Below are positions 442 to 9,508 of a stretch of DNA of 12,625 nucleotides, in pieces (the stretch's first letter is position 1; each line of letters opens with the position of its first letter). The stretch is from Candidatus Fermentibacterales bacterium. GTDB taxonomy: Bacteria; Fermentibacterota; Fermentibacteria; Fermentibacterales; JAFGKQ01. Below the pieces are notes generated by a model. It had not been told where the DNA came from. It made no database searches and was given only the letters and a program-made list of their open reading frames with translations. Where the stretch lies: assembly GCA_016928495.1 (NCBI GenBank), contig JAFGKQ010000328.1:1-12625 (forward strand), in the 5' to 3' direction. Made by a program: the position numbers and the translations under genes.

Positions 442-693
442 ATGGCAGAGAAGGTTCCGAACGCGGACGCCATGTTCAGCAGGGGCTGGGAGGAGATCAA
501 CGCCCGCATAGAGAAGCTCAGGGCCGACCTCGACCTTGCGGAGAGGAAGGGCCTGGGGGAAGCGACGAAGAAGGCCATCGGGAAGCAGCTCCACGGGCTA
601 GAGGAGCTTATTCGGGAATACGAGCAGAGGTGGCTGGCCTTCGAGAAGCAGCTCAAGACACTACAGGAGAGGCTGGGCAACAGGAGCCCCTGA
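442..693 (+). CDS. Small coiled-coil protein of unknown function, related to the 90-aa protein at 5843-6115
   Basis: This 83-residue protein has no signal peptide or membrane segment. It is rich in Glu, Lys, Arg and Leu and should be largely helical, probably coiled coil. The ATG at 442 is preceded by a strong GGAGG at 433-437. Its core resembles the 90-aa product at the head of the facing operon. Both have an aromatic-x-R-G-W motif near residues 12-16 (MFSRGWEEI here, FFDRGWQNV there), a central K-x-x-I-x-x-x-L-x-x-L helix, and a W-L-x-F segment near residue 65 (RWLAFEKQL versus HWLHFHCRI). It lies 33 bp after parB and probably belongs to that operon. Its last 33 bp overlap the 3' end of the convergent membrane-protein gene. 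The function is not recognised; a link to chromosome partitioning rests only on position. Confidence 0.82.
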   Translation: MAEKVPNADAMFSRGWEEINARIEKLRADLDLAERKGLGEATKKAIGKQLHGLEELIREYEQRWLAFEKQLKTLQERLGNRSP

Positions 694-2799
694 GCGGCCT
701 TCCCGCCTTTCCTTGCGTGCTTCCAGCGCCGGGAGCACCGCACTCACCAGGACGAGCCCCCCAATCGCGAGACAGGTCGAGCCCGCCCCCAGCAGGGGGA
801 ATGCGAAGACGGCGACGCCTACCGCGCCCAGCGCGCTACCCAGGAGGTCCGTTGCCTCTAGCGGGCCCACTGCCCGCGTACCGCCCGAGGCCCGGACGGC
901 AAGCGGGAACTGCGCTCCTCCGACCAGACCCATGCAGAGCAGGATCGCCAGCGACCCCGCCGCTATCGCCCGTTCTCCCAGAGCTCCCGTGTCGTAGAGC
1001 GTGCAGAGTGCAGCCAGGAGCAGCAGGAGACATGCCCCGAGGACCTGGATGACGGCAAGGCGAGAGGCCCGCAGCCTGACGGACAGGATCGAGCCGACTC
1101 CGAGGCCGGCCATGAAGAGCCCGACCACAGCACCGACCATGACGAAGGAGTAGCCCAGCGTTGCCTGTACCAGCACCAGACAGGTCACCTCCACGGATAT
1201 CTCCCCGATGCCCATCGAGCCGACCGCGATGGATATGGTGCGGGGACGCGCCAGCATGACAGCCAGGCAGAAGAGGACGAGGAGCGCACCCAGCGCAAGC
1301 TCCAGCTCGCGGGACCTGTCGTGGGATCCGCCCCTGAGCGCCCAGGCGCCGGTGGCGAGTATGAATGCCTCGGGGGTAAGGTCGCGATTCGGGGGAGCAT
1401 CCGCGGCCTGGGCAAGCTGGGAGCGCATGGACTCGATCCTGCCCGTCGAGAGGTCGAAGGGGAGCAGTCCTTCCGTGACGTAGCGCGTGGTCGCGCGCGA
1501 ACCTCTGAGCAGCGCAGCAAGGGATTCCCCGTCCAGGGAGTCCAGCCCTGCGTCCGGATCGGTACCGAGAAGAAGAAGGGCGCCGGAAATGGGCAGGGCC
1601 GCGACGCTGAAGAAGGGTTCGGCCGCGCGCTGGATGCTCGATATCATGCGAGCCTCGACGGGATGGACGCGGTTCTGCCCTGCGGGAAGCGCGAGCGCGG
1701 CCAGGCCCTCGAGAGACATGCTCTCGCGCAGATGCCGGAAGAACTCCTGCGTGTAGAAGCGATTGTCGTAGATGGACAGCGGGGGCCCGAGCTCGAGTAT
1801 GACCAGATCCCATTTTCCGGTGGAGCAGGACGCGATGAATCTCCTCGGGTCCTGCTCCACGATCGAGAATCGTCCATGGTTGCCCGAACGGCCGGAAAGC
1901 GCTTCGAAAGGGGCGGTGTCGATAGTGACCACTGTCAGCTCGCCGGTGCCGGGCCACTCCGAGATCAGAGCCGCCGTCTCGGGGTTCGATCCCGCGTAGA
2001 GAACCTCGCCTCGTCCCTCGGCTGCGATGAGCGGCACTACGGAGATCGCCTCGGCGGCCTCGGGGCTACCGGTGGTGCCCAGCAGGAGACCGGCGCGAAA
2101 CGCGGACACCTCTCCCTCCCGTGAGGCGGTGACCAGCTCTCCGTAGGGGGATGGGGCGGCCCGGACCGAATCGAAGCTCCGATAGCTCGTTGCTCCCAGC
2201 ACTGTCTCCCAGAGGCCGGAATGGAGGCCCGAGGCGAGCAGCGCGACGAAGACCGACGAGGCAACAAGGGCCCTCCAGCGAAGGACAGGGGCCAGGGCAA
2301 GCCCGGAGAGAGCTCCGCAGACCAGTAGCAATCCGGGCGGGAGGAGCCTCCCGGAGAGCAGCAGGAAGAGCGCACCGCCCCCGGCCGCCCCGAAGGACTC
2401 CAGCCCGTAGAGGAGCCCTGTGGCTGATGATCCCCTGAACGGCAGGATGAAGATCAACCCTGCCAGCAGACCGGGAAAGGCGGCGTAGAGGATCGCGGGA
2501 ACGGCAACGGCCCTCGCCAGGATCAGCCAGCAGAGGCAGGCCGGGGCCATCGCCACCGTCACGACGGCCCAGAGACGCCTCCGCGATCCCCGCAGCAACT
2601 GGCCCATCCATGCCCCCAGGCCCGAGAACACGAGCCACCCGGCCAGGACCATGCCCGAGGCAAGCTCGGCGGCTCTGTACCCGGAGAGGCCCTCGCGCAG
2701 AATGGTGCTCTGGGCAACGGCGGTGAGAAGACCGCCCGAAAAGGCGCAGAGAGGACCAAGAGGCCTCTCTCCGGCGGCTGGGCGCACTGCCCCCGTCAC
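661..2799 (-). CDS. Polytopic membrane protein with embedded spermidine-synthase-like domain
   Basis: This 712-residue protein has the layout of the fused MFS/spermidine-synthase family. About six hydrophobic segments lie in residues 15-190, a soluble Rossmann-like domain in about 205-415, and another set of about six to seven segments in 500-692. The segment SPYGELV (217-223) and the IYDNRFYTQEFF stretch (343-354) match the aminopropyltransferase fold. However, the glycine-rich GGGDG nucleotide motif is replaced by AGSNPE (269-274), and the catalytic DssDP-type loop reads ELGPP (336-340), so normal polyamine synthesis is unlikely. The membrane halves share an LE-x-x-D/F-x-G-x-x-x-G repeat (residues 133-140 and 647-658). 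The GTG start overlaps the stop of the MEMO-AMMECR1 gene by 4 bp (GTGA), with GGAGAG upstream, so translation is probably coupled. It is the last gene of the operon. The family is fairly certain; the substrate is unknown. Confidence 0.85.
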   Translation of the reverse strand: MTGAVRPAAGERPLGPLCAFSGGLLTAVAQSTILREGLSGYRAAELASGMVLAGWLVFSGLGAWMGQLLRGSRRRLWAVVTVAMAPACLCWLILARAVAVPAILYAAFPGLLAGLIFILPFRGSSATGLLYGLESFGAAGGGALFLLLSGRLLPPGLLLVCGALSGLALAPVLRWRALVASSVFVALLASGLHSGLWETVLGATSYRSFDSVRAAPSPYGELVTASREGEVSAFRAGLLLGTTGSPEAAEAISVVPLIAAEGRGEVLYAGSNPETAALISEWPGTGELTVVTIDTAPFEALSGRSGNHGRFSIVEQDPRRFIASCSTGKWDLVILELGPPLSIYDNRFYTQEFFRHLRESMSLEGLAALALPAGQNRVHPVEARMISSIQRAAEPFFSVAALPISGALLLLGTDPDAGLDSLDGESLAALLRGSRATTRYVTEGLLPFDLSTGRIESMRSQLAQAADAPPNRDLTPEAFILATGAWALRGGSHDRSRELELALGALLVLFCLAVMLARPRTISIAVGSMGIGEISVEVTCLVLVQATLGYSFVMVGAVVGLFMAGLGVGSILSVRLRASRLAVIQVLGACLLLLLAALCTLYDTGALGERAIAAGSLAILLCMGLVGGAQFPLAVRASGGTRAVGPLEATDLLGSALGAVGVAVFAFPLLGAGSTCLAIGGLVLVSAVLPALEARKERREGRSGAPVAQPLL

Positions 2800-4331
2800 T
2801 GCTCTCCGGAAGGGCCGAAGACCTCCGCGCTGAAGCTGTAGAGAATCGTCTCCGGATCGAGGTAGGCATCATGCGAGAGGCCCGCCTTCTCACAAACCCC
2901 CTCGAGGAACTGCGTCCTCGACCAGCCCAGCTCGACCGGCACCTGCGGAAGCAGAACGCCCGACCTGGATCCGTGGATGATGTAGAGCCCGTCCCTGCCG
3001 ACCCTGACAGCAGAGGGATCATCCACCAGCCGCATCGGAGAGAGAACGGATATCTCGAATTCGACGTCCGGCAGCTCATCCTCGGCGATCGGCGGGAACC
3101 TGGGATCTTCCAGGGCCGCGGCTCTGGCCATGCGGCAGGCCGCGAGATAGAGCGGCATGACCGGCCTGATGCTGCCGATGCAACCTCTGAGCGCTCCGCT
3201 CTCGCGGTAGGTCACGAACACCCCGGACGGAAGCAGCAGGCGGCCCGTCGGAAGCTCCGGAGTGCCGGAGGGCAGCCCTGCGGCGGCCCGGTGCAGCTCC
3301 TCGGAGACCACGGAGCAGAGGTAGCTCTTCTCGTCATCGGTGAGCCCCGATGCCTCGCGCCCTTCCGGCAGCACCACGGCTATTGCCGCGTAGCCGACAA
3401 CGGCGCCCGGATCTCCACCCCCGTCGGCGCTGGTCGCGTGACCGAGAAGCAGCGGAGTGGTCAGGCCCATCAGCGCGTCATAGCAGAGAACGACGTACAT
3501 GGCGGTGCTTCCGCAGGCACAGGTGGCAACGCCCTCGTGCCCGGCGCGTTCCTGCTCCGTCACGACCTCCAGGAAGGACTCGGGGTCTCCCGCCATGAAG
3601 GCCTCGACGGTGGTGGAGTCCAGCTCATCGCAGAGCCGCCGCTCAGGGTAGTGCGCGAGGTCGCTGCTGGCGATCACGACAACGCGGGTCTCGGCGGCCT
3701 CGGCGGCGAGGAGCTCGGCGAGGAACCTGAGATCATCCGGATCGCAGCGCCCCAGGAGGATCGGGAGAACCCGCATGTCCCCGCCCCCCGCTATCAGTTG
3801 CAGGAATGGTATGTGGACCTCGATCGTGTGCTCTCTCTCGTGGAAGGCTCTCTCATAGCGGGCGGCGGGATGCGCCTGCCTGATCCTGCGGGACATGCCC
3901 GGGTCTACGGGCATGTCGCCCAGCGGGGTGGCGTAGGCGGCGCCGCCGAAGACCGATAGACCGTCGAAGCCGACGCTGTGGGCAGCCGAGAGGAGCACGA
4001 CCACTTCCGGAAGGCTGTCCGCGGCCTCCAGCAGGGCATAGAGGCGAGCTGCCGTTCGTCCGGAGTAGACGTACCCGGCGTGCGGCGCCACTCCGGAGAC
4101 CACCCTGCCCTCGCTGGACGGAAGCTGCTCTCCCGCCTCGTCGAGCAGGAGAGAGACGACCATGGACAGCTCGGCGCTGTCTGCAGGGTAGAAGCTCCCG
4201 GCAACGGCGGCGGGCCTTACGTAGCCCGTGTCGGCGCCCGGGGCCCCCTGGCCGGAGGCCTGCGTGCTTCCGCAACCTGCGAGGACGCCCGCAACGGCGA
4301 CAGGCACGATGCGGCGGATCATGGCTCTCAT
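2796..4331 (-). CDS. amrB: MEMO-AMMECR1 fusion lipoprotein (AmmeMemoRadiSam proteins B and A in one chain)
   Basis: This 511-residue protein joins two proteins that are usually separate. Residues 1-20 form a lipoprotein signal (RR, hydrophobic run, lipobox LAGC with Cys20), followed by a Ser/Gly/Ala-rich linker. Residues 38-322 are a MEMO domain, related to class III non-haem iron dioxygenases. It begins VRPAAVAGSFYPAD and keeps PHAGYVYSG (His84), LLSAAHSVG (His118), EHTIEVHIPFLQ, IASSDLAHY and TCACGS (Cys271/Cys273); the two His and a Cys correspond to the metal-site residues described for human MEMO1. Residues 330-508 are an AMMECR1 domain with the diagnostic LRGCIG (381-386) and the EFEISVLSP strand. 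The ATG overlaps the stop of the 62-aa Tat gene by 4 bp; a second ATG at codon 4 would also keep the signal. A lipoprotein signal on MEMO-AMMECR1 implies action outside the cytoplasm. Family identity is firm; the biochemical role of the system is not established. Confidence 0.93.
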   Translation of the reverse strand: MRAMIRRIVPVAVAGVLAGCGSTQASGQGAPGADTGYVRPAAVAGSFYPADSAELSMVVSLLLDEAGEQLPSSEGRVVSGVAPHAGYVYSGRTAARLYALLEAADSLPEVVVLLSAAHSVGFDGLSVFGGAAYATPLGDMPVDPGMSRRIRQAHPAARYERAFHEREHTIEVHIPFLQLIAGGGDMRVLPILLGRCDPDDLRFLAELLAAEAAETRVVVIASSDLAHYPERRLCDELDSTTVEAFMAGDPESFLEVVTEQERAGHEGVATCACGSTAMYVVLCYDALMGLTTPLLLGHATSADGGGDPGAVVGYAAIAVVLPEGREASGLTDDEKSYLCSVVSEELHRAAAGLPSGTPELPTGRLLLPSGVFVTYRESGALRGCIGSIRPVMPLYLAACRMARAAALEDPRFPPIAEDELPDVEFEISVLSPMRLVDDPSAVRVGRDGLYIIHGSRSGVLLPQVPVELGWSRTQFLEGVCEKAGLSHDAYLDPETILYSFSAEVFGPSGEQ

Positions 4332-4516
4332 CCCGCCAGCTTCCTGTAGTACATTGCCCGTCTGTGCGCTACGCGCTTCGCGAGCGTGGTCCGACCGCGC
4401 ATGAAAGAAGGAGCCAGCGCGGCCAGCGCGAGTGCGATCGCCCTCGAGAAGAAGGCGCGCCTGTCTAGCGCCTTCTCGTCTCCGTGCTCCGGATGTGTGT
4501 CGTGCTTCCGAGACAC
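4328..4516 (-). CDS. 62-aa Tat-signal mini-protein between amrS and the MEMO-AMMECR1 gene
   Basis: This is a short but well-supported gene. A GTG start at 4516 follows AGGTGA with 7-nt spacing, and that SD sits on the amrS stop codon. Its own stop overlaps the next start by 4 bp (ATGA). The product has a twin-arginine signal, DRRAFFSRAIALALAALAPS (residues 18-37), then a basic tail ending RRAMYYRKLAG. That tail resembles the AMxYxKL segment that, as I recall the family, stands just before the first Cys motif in many AmrS proteins. AmrS in this window lacks it and starts abruptly at MATDTVQC. The gene may be a detached Tat/N-terminal module of AmrS or a small exported partner. The coding call rests on the SD, the Tat motif and coupling to both neighbours; the function is inference. 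Confidence 0.75.
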   Translation of the reverse strand: MSRKHDTHPEHGDEKALDRRAFFSRAIALALAALAPSFMRGRTTLAKRVAHRRAMYYRKLAG

Positions 4517-4523
4517 CTCGGCC

Positions 4524-5528
4524 TCACCTCTCTTCCGTTCCCCCCGTTCCCCAGACGCCGGGAATGGAGGCGCCGCAGTCCGGGCAGTGCCCGGATGCGG
4601 AGATGCGGCTCATCGTTACCTCGAACAGGTCCCTGCGGATCAGGTCCGCTCCGCAGTTGTGGCAGCGTGTCAGGGAACCGTTCTCGACTACGACGTTGCC
4701 GACGTAGACGTACCTGCTGCCTGCCTCCAGGCTTATTTCCCTGGCGCCTGCCAGGGTGCGGGCCGGCGTGGGCGGCAGCTCCGTCAGTTGATACATTGGC
4801 ATGAACCTGGAGAAGTGCACCGGGACGTCCTCTCCCAGCTCCCCGGCTACCCACTCCGAGAGGCTTCTGAGATCCTCCTCGTCATCGTTCCATCCCGGCA
4901 CGACCAGGTTGGTTACCTCGAGCCAGACGCCGAGCTCCTGCAGGATCCTCAAAGTCCTCTGGACTGGCTCCAGGGTGCCGTAGCACATCTCCCTGTAGTA
5001 GGCGTCGGTCATCCCCTTGAGGTCCACGTTGGCGGCATCGATCCACTGGGCCAGCTCCCTCAGAGGCCCTTCGTTGATGTAGCCGGCGGTGACCATTATC
5101 GAAGCCAGGCCCGCTTCCCTGGCGAGCTTCGCTGTGTCGAGCATGTACTCGTAGAAGACGATCGGCTCCGTGTAGGTGAAGGCGATGCTGTCGCAGCCCG
5201 AGCGCAAGGCCTCTTCCACTGCCGCCTCGGGCGGCAGGTCGTAGGGGGGCACGTCCTCCGGGGCCGCCTGGGAGATCTCCCAGTTCTGGCAGAACCTGCA
5301 CCCGAGGTTGCAGCCGGCCGTGGCGATGGAGAAGGTGGCCGTCCCGGGCATGAAGTGGTAGAGCGGCTTCTTCTCGACTGGATCGACATGCACTGCAACG
5401 GGTCTCCCGTAGACCAGGCTGACCAGCTCGCCATCGAGGTTGGCCCTGACACCGCAGACCCCCCGCTCTCTAACGCGTATCACGCAGCAGTGGGGGCAGA
5501 GCAGGCACTGGACCGTATCGGTGGCCAT
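4524..5528 (-). CDS. amrS: AmmeMemoRadiSam system radical SAM enzyme
   Basis: This 334-residue radical SAM protein belongs to the family often annotated as a pyruvate-formate-lyase-activating-enzyme-like protein and paired with MEMO and AMMECR1. It has an N-terminal Cys cluster (CLLCPHCC, Cys8-Cys15) followed by ERGVCGVRANLDGELVSLVY, which is typical of the family. The radical SAM motif CNLGCRFC (Cys73, Cys77, Cys80) binds the [4Fe-4S] cluster that cleaves S-adenosylmethionine. A C-terminal zinc-ribbon-like module has Cys289/Cys292 and Cys315/Cys318 and ends in the characteristic GASIPGVWG. The ATG lies 2 bp after the stop of the 89-aa gene, so the genes are co-transcribed. It has no signal peptide and a shorter N-terminus than I recall for relatives. 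The substrate is unknown; family membership is secure because of the neighbouring MEMO-AMMECR1 gene. Confidence 0.95.
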   Translation of the reverse strand: MATDTVQCLLCPHCCVIRVRERGVCGVRANLDGELVSLVYGRPVAVHVDPVEKKPLYHFMPGTATFSIATAGCNLGCRFCQNWEISQAAPEDVPPYDLPPEAAVEEALRSGCDSIAFTYTEPIVFYEYMLDTAKLAREAGLASIMVTAGYINEGPLRELAQWIDAANVDLKGMTDAYYREMCYGTLEPVQRTLRILQELGVWLEVTNLVVPGWNDDEEDLRSLSEWVAGELGEDVPVHFSRFMPMYQLTELPPTPARTLAGAREISLEAGSRYVYVGNVVVENGSLTRCHNCGADLIRRDLFEVTMSRISASGHCPDCGASIPGVWGTGGTEER

Positions 5529-5530
5529 CG

Positions 5531-5800
5531 TCAGTCCGCCCGCTCTTCCGGATACGGCACGGCCCAGCTCGCGGGATGCGCGGAGAGGATTCCCTGCTCT
5601 ATGAGCTCACGAACGAGCGAGACATCCAGCTCCCCCGGAGGATGCTTCCAGGACGGTGCTTCCCGCACCATCTCCAGGACCCTGTCGATGAAGGAGGTCG
5701 AGTCGGGCCCCTGGTCCTCCGGCGCATGGGAGACGGTGCCGGTGACGGCGAGGGCGGCGAGAAGAGCGGGAACGAGCATCACGTCGAGCAAAGGGCGCAA
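5531..5800 (-). CDS. Small exported protein of unknown function
   Basis: This 89-residue product has a hydrophobic N-terminus (LLDVMLVPALLAALAVTGTV) with a probable signal-peptidase site after VSHA, leaving about 64 mature residues. The mature part contains SFIDRVLEMVREAP and a second amphipathic helix, LVRELIEQGILS, and ends acidic. I recognise no family. The TTG start is preferred because AGGAG (5808-5812) lies 7 nt upstream; an ATG at 5779 would give a shorter form that still has the hydrophobic segment. It sits 42 bp after the 90-aa gene and 2 bp before amrS, so it belongs to the AmmeMemoRadiSam operon and may act in the same exported compartment. Confidence 0.7.
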   Translation of the reverse strand: MRPLLDVMLVPALLAALAVTGTVSHAPEDQGPDSTSFIDRVLEMVREAPSWKHPPGELDVSLVRELIEQGILSAHPASWAVPYPEERAD

Positions 5801-5842
5801 GAGAGGGCTCCTGTCGGATCGTCCCGTGGCTGGAGCCGGCAG

Positions 5843-6115
5843 TCAGCCTTCTTCCGAATGAGGGTCCTCGGAGGGGATGTTGTACTCCCGCAGCAAGGCA
5901 TCGATCCTGCAATGGAAGTGCAACCAGTGGTCAGCGAACAGCTCGACCTGCGAGGAGAGGTCTTCCAGGGCCTCGGAGATCTCCTCCTTCGTCGAGCTCC
6001 CGTCGCCGGCGTTCTTCTCGATCTCCGCGGCAGCCTGGGACAGCCGCCGGAAATGCCTGTCCACGTTCTGCCAGCCTCTGTCGAAGAAGGTCTCTGCCAG
6101 AGAGTCCTTGACCAA
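5843..6115 (-). CDS. Small helical protein, first gene of the AmmeMemoRadiSam operon; relative of the 442-693 product
   Basis: This 90-residue protein has no signal or membrane segment and should be mostly helical. It shares its layout with the 83-aa protein after parB: FFDRGW near the start, a middle helix (KEEISEALEDLSSQ), and a W-L-x-F segment (HWLHFHCRIDALL). Alignment of the two supports the TTG start, because the aromatic-RGW motif then falls at nearly the same distance from the N-terminus. An in-frame TAG lies upstream, and no ATG or GTG lies between. The SD is weak. The start is about 57 bp downstream of the -10 element of the divergent promoter, making this the operon's first gene. 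The function is not recognised. Confidence 0.75.
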   Translation of the reverse strand: MVKDSLAETFFDRGWQNVDRHFRRLSQAAAEIEKNAGDGSSTKEEISEALEDLSSQVELFADHWLHFHCRIDALLREYNIPSEDPHSEEG

Positions 6116-6321: not shown

Positions 6322-6363
6322 CGCCTACCGCATGCAGTAAGAAGCTCTGAACGGAGGATATTG

Positions 6364-6531
6364 ATGGCCTACAGGATCACTGACAGCTGCATCGCCTGTG
6401 GCGCCTGCCAGACCGAGTGCCCGGTAGAAGCCATCAGCGAGGGAGAGAAGTACAGCATCGATCCCGAGAAGTGCATCGACTGCGGAGCCTGCGCCTCGGT
6501 CTGCCCCGTGGAGGCCATAGAGGCTCCCTGA
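6364..6531 (+). CDS. 2[4Fe-4S] ferredoxin, clostridial type
   Basis: This 55-residue electron carrier has two copies of CxxCxxCxxxCP: [16 protein letters not shown] (residues 9-24) and [16 protein letters not shown] (37-52). Each ligates one [4Fe-4S] cluster, with the fourth Cys of each motif serving the other cluster. The length and pseudo-twofold symmetry are normal for the bacterial 8Fe ferredoxins of anaerobes, which shuttle low-potential electrons between oxidoreductases, hydrogenases and radical SAM enzymes. The ATG at 6364 follows GGAGGA with 5-nt spacing; a TTG at 6361 is closer to the SD and less likely. The gene stands alone between a near-consensus promoter and a hairpin terminator. 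It is divergent from the amrS operon, so it might supply electrons to AmrS, but that is inference only. Confidence 0.96.
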
Positions 6532-6658: not shown

Positions 6659-9508
6659 CTAGAGCGATGCGGAGTAGACCCTGGGCAGGCACCTCTCTTC
6701 CTCCGGGCTCGACAACTCCTCGTAGAGGTCTTTGAGGGACACGGTTTCGTAGTCCTCGAGGATCCTCGCGAGCTTCCTGCGGGTAGGGGCTCCGGTGTTG
6801 TAGGTCTGACGGAACCTCTGGAAGAAGGTCATCGGTGCCCCCGGGGTGGTCCTGTCGATCTCCCAGGGGTGGCAGTAGGTGACGGGCACGGAGGGGCTCA
6901 TGGCGGTGGTGCGCTCCAGGAGCGCCCTGTAGAGCGGCTCCGGATAGAAGCGCAGGTAGACTCCCCCACCGACGGGTATCTTCATGCCCCAGAGCCGGCC
7001 GGAGGCGATCGGCAGCTCCAGGAGGCGGCCATGTGAGGTCTCGAGAACGAAGGGCGTGGTGGGGGCGTCCGGCACTCCGTACCGGCGGTGCCTGAACATC
7101 GGGTATATGCTGCTGTCATAGAGATAGCCGTGACTTATGATATCATCGATGGCCCACATCGTCTCGGTGACGACCGAGAAGGAAGGAGCGCGGAAGCCGA
7201 TGGGTCTGGGCAGGCCCAGCCTGTCCATGAGAGACTGCACTCGGTCCAGGTCGGCCGAGAAGTCCTCGCGCGATCTGCTCGTAAGTGCCTGGTGCGTGTA
7301 TCCCAGGCTTGCCGCCTCGTGCCCCTTCTCCAGTATCCTGCCCACAAGCGCGGGATGCCTTTCCACTATCCAGCCCAGGAAGAAGAAAGTCGCTCTGGCG
7401 TTGTGAGCTTCCAGCAGATCCAGGATGGTGGAGAGAGTATCGACTGCGTGCTGTGGCAGGCTGTCCCATGTCTCTTCGGGGTGCCACTTCCGGGCCGCCG
7501 ATGTCTGGAACCACTCCTCGACGTCGAAGCTCATCGCTACTCGGGTCTTGCCGGCCCTCCCAACGACCCTGCCCCCTCTGGAGGTGAAGGAAGAGATGTC
7601 ATGCCTGGATGGGAACCTGTTGCGGGTGGCCAGCTCATCCGAGTTGTCGCGGACACGGGGCTCTCTGCCCTGCCTCAGCCTCTCGAGCAGGTCGATCACC
7701 AGCTCCGCCCCGACCTCCTTGCACTCCCTCATCAACTCCTCCAGAGAGGTGTTGCGGATGGAGGCCCGGATCGGCTTCTGCATCACGATGCCTCCGGCGT
7801 CGAGCTTGCGGATCATCCTGTGGAGGGTTACCCCGGTCTCGCCCCTGCCGTTGTAGAGAGACCAGAAGGCCGGCATCATGCCGCGGTTCTTCGGCAGCAG
7901 GGAGGAGTGGAGGTTGAAGCAGCCCAGGCGTGGGATCGCCAGGGTGTCTCTCTTCAGGATCTGAGGACAGGCAAGGGAGATGAACAGATCCGGCTGGAGG
8001 GACTCGAGCTGGTCTCTTGCCACATCGTTGTTCACGTCGACCAGGGGCATGTACCTGGAACCCGTCAGGTACGCGACCTGGCGCAGGGAGCTGGGCCTTC
8101 CCGCAGTCATGGGGATCAGCCCCCTCAGCCTCAGCCACAGGAAGCGAACCAGCCTGAAGGGGAAGAGCGCGATCCCATACAGGTCGGCATACTTGCGCAG
8201 CATGAGCGGCAGCTTCTCCAGCGATCCGTGTCCCGGGAGCGGCACGATCGTGTACTCGCTGCCCGGGAGCCTGGTGATGATGGTCTGGACACAGCTCGGG
8301 ATGTTGAAGGGCTCCGAGTCGCACAGGAAGACCACGCGCAGGCCCGGTGCGATCAGGTCCCGGTACAGCTTCTCGACTGCTGCCGCCGAGCTTTCCAGGG
8401 AGTAGGGCTCGAGAGCGTCTTCATCGAAGCCTTCCACGAGCTTCCTCGCGAGGTGGGCGTCCTCCAGGATTCGCAGGGCGCAGCTCGCCAGCTCGCTGGA
8501 GTCCCTGGTGTCTACGATGAATCCGCCACGCTGCCCGGTCGACACGAAATCCGTGCATCCGCAGGCGGCCGTGGTGACTACCGGGACGCCTGCAGCAAGG
8601 GCCTCTGTGATGCACCTCGGGAAACCGAGCTTGCTGGAGGTCTGAAGCATGACGTCCAGAGCGGGGAGCAGCTCCGGGAGATCCTCCCCATAGGGTCTTA
8701 CGACGAGTCGGTCATCCAGACCCAGAGTAGCTACCCGACGCCTGGCCTGCCTGTCGATGCCTCCCGAGGCGAACAGCACCAGGAAGGTGTCCGGGAAGCG
8801 TTCCCGTATGGTTCTTGCGGTCCTGAGGAGGAGGTCCAGGCCGGACTTCCTGCGGAGATCGACTATCGAGCCGAGCACCGTCGGTGCATCGGGAGGGATG
8901 CCCAGCTTCTGCCTGGCCGGCCCCGGGTTGCCCCTCCACCTGAGGAACTCCCGGAGGTCTATTCCGCTTGGCACGACCGTGTAGTCACCCGGCTTCCCTA
9001 TGCCCTTGTAGACAGCCCAGCCCAGGTCGCGCTCCGAGTGGAGAATGGTGCGGTTGGAGAGCCTGAAGCCGAGCTTTTCCAGGGCTATCGATGCCTTGAG
9101 GGCGAGTGGCGTCCTGTGATCCCGGAAAAGCCAGCGATGCACCGTCTGGACCACGGTTGCGGACCGAGGGAGCTTCGCGGCCAGCCTTGCGATGATCATG
9201 GCGCGGGTGCCGTGAGCGTGTACGAGGTCGTATCTGCCCTCGTGGATCCTGATTCGAAGCTCCAGGAAGGCCATCAGGTCTCTTGTGAGGGACCCTCTGC
9301 TCATGAGGTACCGCGAACGGACGACCCTTATCCTGTGCCTGTCGAGGAATCTTGCGAGAGAGCCGTCCGAGGGGCAGTCTCGAGTGATCATGACCGTGAA
9401 CTGGAAGCCGCGGCCCGCGAGCAGAGTGGCCGGAAGCAGCGCGTCCATCACCGAACCGTCCAGCGAGGCTCCGGTGATGACGTGAAGGACCCTGATCGAG
9501 CTCCTCAT
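6659..9508 (-). CDS. Three-domain fusion: GT4 glycosyltransferase, formyltransferase, polysaccharide deacetylase
   Basis: This 949-residue protein carries three enzyme domains. Residues 1-385 are a GT-B, GT4-type glycosyltransferase (RVLHVITG, DLVHAHGTR, TVVPSGID, then GFPRCITEALAAGVPVV). Residues 388-614 are a folate-dependent formyltransferase with all three catalytic residues: Asn532 and His534 in NLHSSLLPKNRG, and Asp570 in IRKLDAGGIVM. Residues 655-935 are a NodB-type deacetylase of the DUF3473/exosortase-associated group (SFDVEEWF with Asp662, GFRAPSFS, IPVGGGVYLR, CHPWEID). Two usual key residues are changed: the first Glu of the GT4 EX7E motif is Leu294, and the first zinc His of the deacetylase HxxxH is Leu735. 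The start is the ATG at 9508, not the longer open frame to 10000, because homology begins there and the ATG overlaps the upstream stop by 4 bp. It probably modifies an amino sugar during cell-surface polysaccharide synthesis. Domain calls are firm; the substrate is unknown. Confidence 0.9.
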   Translation of the reverse strand: MRSSIRVLHVITGASLDGSVMDALLPATLLAGRGFQFTVMITRDCPSDGSLARFLDRHRIRVVRSRYLMSRGSLTRDLMAFLELRIRIHEGRYDLVHAHGTRAMIIARLAAKLPRSATVVQTVHRWLFRDHRTPLALKASIALEKLGFRLSNRTILHSERDLGWAVYKGIGKPGDYTVVPSGIDLREFLRWRGNPGPARQKLGIPPDAPTVLGSIVDLRRKSGLDLLLRTARTIRERFPDTFLVLFASGGIDRQARRRVATLGLDDRLVVRPYGEDLPELLPALDVMLQTSSKLGFPRCITEALAAGVPVVTTAACGCTDFVSTGQRGGFIVDTRDSSELASCALRILEDAHLARKLVEGFDEDALEPYSLESSAAAVEKLYRDLIAPGLRVVFLCDSEPFNIPSCVQTIITRLPGSEYTIVPLPGHGSLEKLPLMLRKYADLYGIALFPFRLVRFLWLRLRGLIPMTAGRPSSLRQVAYLTGSRYMPLVDVNNDVARDQLESLQPDLFISLACPQILKRDTLAIPRLGCFNLHSSLLPKNRGMMPAFWSLYNGRGETGVTLHRMIRKLDAGGIVMQKPIRASIRNTSLEELMRECKEVGAELVIDLLERLRQGREPRVRDNSDELATRNRFPSRHDISSFTSRGGRVVGRAGKTRVAMSFDVEEWFQTSAARKWHPEETWDSLPQHAVDTLSTILDLLEAHNARATFFFLGWIVERHPALVGRILEKGHEAASLGYTHQALTSRSREDFSADLDRVQSLMDRLGLPRPIGFRAPSFSVVTETMWAIDDIISHGYLYDSSIYPMFRHRRYGVPDAPTTPFVLETSHGRLLELPIASGRLWGMKIPVGGGVYLRFYPEPLYRALLERTTAMSPSVPVTYCHPWEIDRTTPGAPMTFFQRFRQTYNTGAPTRRKLARILEDYETVSLKDLYEELSSPEEERCLPRVYSASL

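Follow-up and report, generated by a model that had tools for sequence, protein, structure and literature searches.

Sequence features pointing to an extracytoplasmic AmmeMemoRadiSam system with a split AmrS in Fermentibacterota

The AmmeMemoRadiSam system is widespread and counts among its members the relatives that human MEMO1 and AMMECR1 have in bacteria; no established activity for it was found in the open-access literature searched. A 12,625-nucleotide stretch of DNA from a Candidatus Fermentibacterales bacterium (contig JAFGKQ010000328.1, hereafter the window) carries such a system, and raises the question of where its radical SAM enzyme, AmrS, works. In the preliminary description of this locus, an envelope-linked pathway was proposed, in which AmrS, apparently cytoplasmic, might form a product or activate a partner protein ahead of export.

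Organisation of the locus

The operon consists of five genes on the minus strand, in the order SP89, AmrS, TAT62, MEMO-AMMECR1 fusion and membrane protein (Table 1). The first junctions measure 2 nt (SP89/AmrS) and 7 nt (AmrS/TAT62), followed by ATGA- or GTGA-type overlaps; TAT62 has a GTG start, and its stop overlaps the MEMO start (ATGA). The same gene order (U-type protein, AmrS, Tat protein, lipoprotein MEMO-AMMECR1, membrane protein) recurs in Fermentibacterota relatives of the same taxonomic order. As judged by AmrS score, 19 of the 42 genomes of that order, including the one studied here, possess this type of AmrS, and the named relatives with the locus are Candidatus Aegiribacteria, which we take to be placed in the GTDB Fermentibacterota.

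Table 1. Coordinates of the AmrS operon, its sequence motifs and the surrounding genes in the window
Feature	Position	Strand	Basis or remark
83-aa gene	442..690	+	directly 3' of parB
14-TM membrane protein with inserted Spermine_synth-like domain	661..2799	-	profile match and topology prediction
MEMO-AMMECR1 fusion lipoprotein	2796..4331	-	TIGR04336 218 bits (cut-off 26), TIGR04335 151 bits (cut-off 99); lipobox
Lipobox LAGC, residues 17-20, predicted acylated Cys20	4272..4283	-	motif reading
TAT62 ('D-type')	4328..4516	-	62-aa Tat-signal protein; appears to carry the detached AmrS N-terminal segment
D-tail of TAT62, HRRAMYYRKLAG followed by the stop	4331..4366	-	equivalent of EAxYYxxL-AG before VxCxLCP in fused AmrS
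Twin-arginine motif RRAFF of TAT62	4448..4462	-	motif reading
AmrS core	4524..5528	-	TIGR04337 391 bits (cut-off 220)
SP89 ('U-type')	5531..5800	-	89-aa secreted protein; homologues in relatives at the equivalent place
U-tail of SP89, GILSAHPASWAVPYPEERAD	5534..5593	-	cf. GLLTYHEADWY, GILPKEAKYW, GLSPHEARYW in relatives and other phyla
90-aa gene	5843..6115	-	5' of SP89; outside the conserved operon
Ferredoxin gene	6361..6531	+	56 aa, 2x[4Fe-4S]; divergent from the AmrS operon
Three-domain fusion gene	6659..9490	-	single chain: family-4 glycosyltransferase, formyl-transferase domain, polysaccharide deacetylase with DUF3473

Positions 661-6115 had earlier been treated as one operon; this stands for the five genes that begin with SP89 and end with that of the membrane protein, with their tight junctions and conserved order, but not for the 90-aa gene. 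The latter is not conserved upstream of SP89 in related loci, and the 83-aa gene is its paralogue (E 2e-6). Both paralogues are predicted to be helical; they gave no strong Pfam family and were absent from the related loci compared. As for the three-enzyme fusion at 6659-9490, it is unusual and probably serves an envelope polysaccharide.

Motifs, hydropathy and charge served to assign the Tat, Sec and lipobox signals and the membrane topology. The readings bore out most of the earlier assignments: SP89 has a hydrophobic signal and, with VSHA, an AxA-like site, TAT62 has DRRAFF and a hydrophobic stretch, the product of the last gene is a large polytopic membrane protein, and MEMO and AMMECR1 are fused behind a lipoprotein signal, whose LAGC spans residues 17-20, so that the numbering of Cys20 is correct. 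Operon homologues without lipobox or Tat signal, which would have spoken against this picture, were looked for: the lipobox is present in 17 of the 17 readable Fermentibacterota fusions and the Tat gene, wherever the locus left space for it, in 19 of 19 loci. Moreover, fusion, lipobox, Tat gene and membrane gene were all found to recur when the neighbourhoods of relatives were surveyed. Both LspA and TatC are encoded in the genome itself, which thus combines the lipobox cysteine with the lipoprotein signal peptidase LspA. The two small genes, SP89 and TAT62, have a median dN/dS of about 0.22, with pN<pS in 66 of 66 pairs, and are under purifying selection, evolving as proteins.

Concerning the fusion, residues H84/H118 align with the metal ligands H49/H81 of human MEMO1 (metal site: PMC11081632), and C273 is probably the equivalent of MEMO1 C244. 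The AMMECR1 motif LRGCIG lies at residue 381. A second MEMO and AMMECR1 pair, devoid of signals, is found in the same genome beside dapA-dapB, where its contig ends.

The N-terminal segment of AmrS

In the window, the AmrS alignment to TIGR04337 starts at profile position 9, leaving positions 1-8 unmatched, and is therefore not full-length. Its cysteines are conserved: C73/C77/C80 of the radical SAM cluster (CxxxCxxC), the N-terminal set C8/C11/C15/C25, possibly binding an extra Fe-S cluster, and the cysteines of the C-terminal ribbon, C289/C292/C315/C318, all fall in invariant columns of a 14-row alignment. Most AmrS start with an anchor followed by EAxYYxxL-xxx-VxCxLCP, whereas that of the window starts at VQCLLCP and has no signal of its own. 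Its own hairpin strand at the N-terminus has apparently been lost, and this piece, together with the export signal, would now be borne by TAT62. The earlier impression of a cytoplasmic AmrS would be explained by an N-terminus encoded in the Tat gene; the enzyme is probably not cytoplasmic.

A Tat protein with the same kind of ending occurs in all 19 Fermentibacterota loci scanned, and every D-type protein has RR(x)F/V or an RK/KR variant. The free C-terminus LAG (or AG) is kept in all Fermentibacterota and in 7 of 10 D-type proteins from elsewhere, while the aromatic pair is variable (YY, HY, YW, HW, YA, YS). When a tail profile trained on other phyla only was run against 1457 ORFs from Fermentibacterota loci, D-type proteins made up 15 of the top 16.

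The structural place of this segment was read from AlphaFold models of two fused AmrS, L091 with a D-like segment (HPANYREKLAG-DTVRC; mean pLDDT 94.9) and L085 with a U-like one (mean pLDDT 93.9). In both, the segment and the VxC strand form a beta-hairpin, with a pLDDT of about 97-98 (strands 17-19/25-27 in L091, 55-58/62-65 in L085), which argues for a segment integral to the fold and for a single site to which both kinds of tail map. A search for solved AmrS structures returned none, the nearest solved fold being pyruvate formate-lyase activating enzyme (PFL-AE; 3cb8, TMt 0.81).

SP89 would carry the second kind of tail: its C-terminus, containing ELIEQGILSAHPASWAVP, repeats the N-terminal segment of AmrS in degenerate form. 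Since the window tail is too degenerate to score alone, this assignment draws on homology and synteny: the L052 homologue of SP89 (E 1e-7) ranks best of the 1457 ORFs against a U-tail profile built from other phyla only.

Fused and split forms were compared in 80 named genomes and others. Their classes were read by eye, because the automatic Tat/own-motif classifier misses some signals and motifs (L090, L130, L139 and L143 were called 'no motif'), and L106, L141 and L149 were left out of the count as unclear. On this basis, a hairpin-less AmrS has a small Tat gene directly downstream in 19 of 19 Fermentibacterota cases and in 10 of 11 outside the lineage, the eleventh having a KRxDFLK variant; beside AmrS with their own hairpin, a small Tat ORF occurs in only 4 of 73, all chance-like (Fisher p=3.8e-9 against the cases outside the lineage). 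A chance origin of the small Tat ORFs was rejected in view of this complementarity together with the purifying selection. The split forms outside the lineage come from Omnitrophota, Elusimicrobia, Planctomycetota, Magnetococcales, Verrucomicrobiota and some unassigned genomes. On a tree of AmrS cores, the split requires three changes and lies mostly in one region with a few fused forms; it is thus old and not often repeated, and, having arisen once or a few times, its complementarity does not represent many independent events. One fused form inside the split clade, L121, has the Tat segment and AmrS in one chain, apparently as a natural fusion of both; a U-tail was looked for in this locus and is absent, the upstream gene reading as a hydrolase-like protein.

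We consider it moderately probable that the AmmeMemoRadiSam system of this locus is extracytoplasmic and that its split AmrS hitchhikes through Tat. As a protein of 62 residues and no cofactor, TAT62 would have little need of Tat if it did not bind a folded partner. The tails might instead be substrates, modified by a cytoplasmic AmrS (perhaps at the terminal glycine of LAG) and then exported, with MEMO-AMMECR1 and the membrane protein acting outside on the tail so modified. AmrS is a relative of the glycyl-radical activases and in structure closest to PFL-AE, including its peptide-substrate complex (3cb8), and such a role would be in keeping with the preserved free C-terminus and with two tail proteins per AmrS. 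Of a RiPP precursor/maturase pair, in which the radical SAM enzyme modifies an invariant residue of a short precursor, the locus shows short exported partners, with the terminal (A)G in most as the one invariant candidate. Yet no other residue of these partners is both invariant and reactive, and the aromatic pair varies; the segment is embedded in the fold of most AmrS, the small proteins are missing beside AmrS that have it, and the export route is Tat, not Sec, throughout. Modification of the tails is thus unlikely, and weaker than an extracytoplasmic split AmrS.

Predicted export of AmrS and its partners in other phyla

Fused relatives of AmrS were found in about 20 phyla, mostly with their own Tat signal or a TM/Sec anchor: among 61 with the motif, 29 have a Tat signal and 16 a TM/Sec anchor, the automatic count being an undercount. 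As most relatives have a signal or anchor on AmrS, and as this part is split off into the Tat gene here, the evidence points to an AmrS located outside. In L090 (3096-4472, Chloroflexota) and L130 (1104-2459, Syntrophales), a c-type haem motif, CxxCH, separates the N-terminal segment of AmrS from its core, and this AmrS is possibly a radical SAM enzyme with haem c; haem c attachment occurs outside the membrane. Exported MEMO-AMMECR1, exported AmrS and a similar membrane protein recur in many phyla, which strongly supports the envelope-linked pathway proposed earlier, while a cytoplasmic AmrS acting before export becomes the weaker reading, given the signals and anchors on most related AmrS. 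L091 is the one locus with a cytosolic AmrS and a neighbouring fusion, and that fusion is also without signal.

In other phyla, the U-tail is found on various carriers. Small anchored or secreted upstream proteins bear it in L079, L122, L093 and L033, whereas in L081 and L088 it follows the last hydrophobic helix of FMN_bind/Fer4_5 (NosR-like) membrane proteins. Single chains of about 1300 aa end the series: L082 (10646-14554) joins a Spermine_synth-like membrane protein, FMN_bind, Fer4_5 and the AmrS tail, and L146 (12545-16426) an MFS-like membrane part, FMN_bind, Fer4_5 and the tail, its Spermine_synth assignment coming from clustering, not Pfam. Among 80 AmrS that are exported or split, 16 have a DsbD_2 or FMN_bind/Fer4_5 protein beside them. 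An FMN_bind protein was sought in the genome studied here (81% complete) and none was found, so that the putative electron donor of other phyla has no counterpart here. Directly upstream of Tat-AmrS in L094, L097, L112, L131, L135 and L144 (KSB1, Aminicenantes, Poribacteria and Caldithrix) lie DUF362 proteins, of which the majority have a Tat signal.

These carriers also bear on whether TAT62 and SP89 merely anchor or regulate an AmrS that stays in the cytoplasm, bringing it to the inner face of the membrane before their export or cleavage. The lack of a signal on AmrS itself would suit this, as would a cytoplasm that holds SAM and ferredoxin and the ferredoxin gene nearby on the other strand. 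Nevertheless, all the carriers place the tail outside, be they Sec-cleaved, N-in anchored, Tat-dependent or ended by the last TM of NosR-like proteins, and fused AmrS bearing Tat signals and motifs for haem c would be outside by construction; we regard an inner-face role as improbable.

Seven helices precede and seven follow the large domain of the membrane protein, and the positive-inside loop charges predict that this domain lies outside the membrane. In other phyla, homologues of the protein are recognised by Pfam PF01564, but an ordinary spermidine synthase was rejected: the score against the NCBIfam polyamine aminopropyltransferase model is 46 bits vs. a cut-off of 472, and the Asp pair found in the active-site loop of spermidine synthase is not kept in the alignment. 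Such a membrane protein occurs close to 45 of the 80 AmrS that are exported or split vs. 0 of the 22 cytosolic AmrS. An ordinary cytosolic operon beside unrelated small signal-peptide genes, as the clear AmrS, MEMO and AMMECR1 families might suggest, is very improbable against small genes conserved in order, under purifying selection and complementary to AmrS, and a separate signal-less MEMO/AMMECR1 pair next to dapA-dapB.

Proposed mechanism and related systems

For the extracytoplasmic split AmrS, the following course of events is proposed. The AmrS core would fold in the cytoplasm, Fe-S clusters included, where the TAT62 tail, by docking, would supply the missing N-terminal beta-strand in trans and complete the hairpin; the Tat signal of TAT62 could then carry the folded complex across the membrane. 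Outside, the SP89 U-tail may take over the same docking site, for which U- and D-tails would compete, and the exported AmrS would work with the lipid-anchored MEMO-AMMECR1 and the outward Spermine_synth-like domain. In other phyla, the tail on membrane FMN/Fe-S proteins would tether AmrS to a source of electrons. More tentatively, sequence comparison suggests a scheme for many phyla that could perhaps hold, in which AmrS, fused or split, is Tat-exported and reduced, via the transferable tail, by membrane FMN/Fe-S, thiol or haem carriers, with the outward spermidine-synthase-like membrane protein binding or supplying a SAM-type nucleoside. The SAM-related role of that domain is only a suggestion.

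Compared with the AmmeMemoRadiSam system as known, all three members exceed their curated cut-offs (Table 1) and the radical SAM cysteines are intact; the differences lie in MEMO and AMMECR1 fused on a lipoprotein, the apparently split AmrS with its N-terminal strand on a Tat protein, the predicted outward Spermine_synth-like membrane partner, and the second, signal-less MEMO/AMMECR1 pair in the same genome. From PFL-AE, the closest solved fold, the locus departs by an operon without glycyl-radical enzyme and by the extra N- and C-terminal Cys domains of AmrS. The membrane partner shares with polyamine aminopropyltransferases a Rossmann Spermine_synth domain detectable in homologues, but falls far under the equivalog cut-off, does not keep the Asp pair and would hold the domain outside a 14-TM protein.

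Two further likenesses concern export and electron supply. In Tat hitchhiker complexes, such as periplasmic NiFe hydrogenases and formate dehydrogenases, folded cofactor proteins and signal-less partners are carried (PMC10924467). Here too, a signal-less Fe-S partner stands beside a twin-arginine partner in a genome with Tat machinery; as all AmrS partners in the operon are predicted outside, Tat fits AmrS. The differences are a cargo that would be a radical SAM enzyme and a 62-aa signal partner resembling a detached piece of it. In reductive dehalogenase and NosR/RdhC modules, an external enzyme, a small membrane anchor and an FMN-binding CX3CP membrane electron carrier are combined (PMC5928378); tail-linked carriers of this FMN-binding CX3CP type occur with AmrS in other phyla, whereas the genome studied here has no FMN_bind protein and the enzyme is AmrS.

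No account of an exported AmrS or of a Tat-exported radical SAM enzyme was found in the open-access literature, and we know of no extracytoplasmic pool or source of SAM. If true, a radical SAM enzyme outside the cytoplasm would overturn the assumed confinement of these enzymes to the site of SAM synthesis, and the delivery of SAM to that side would then have to be explained. For the AmmeMemoRadiSam system, the pattern gives a testable site of action, outside the membrane, with a set of partners and a docking peptide, and the transferable tail provides a sequence handle for finding AmrS partners in other genomes.
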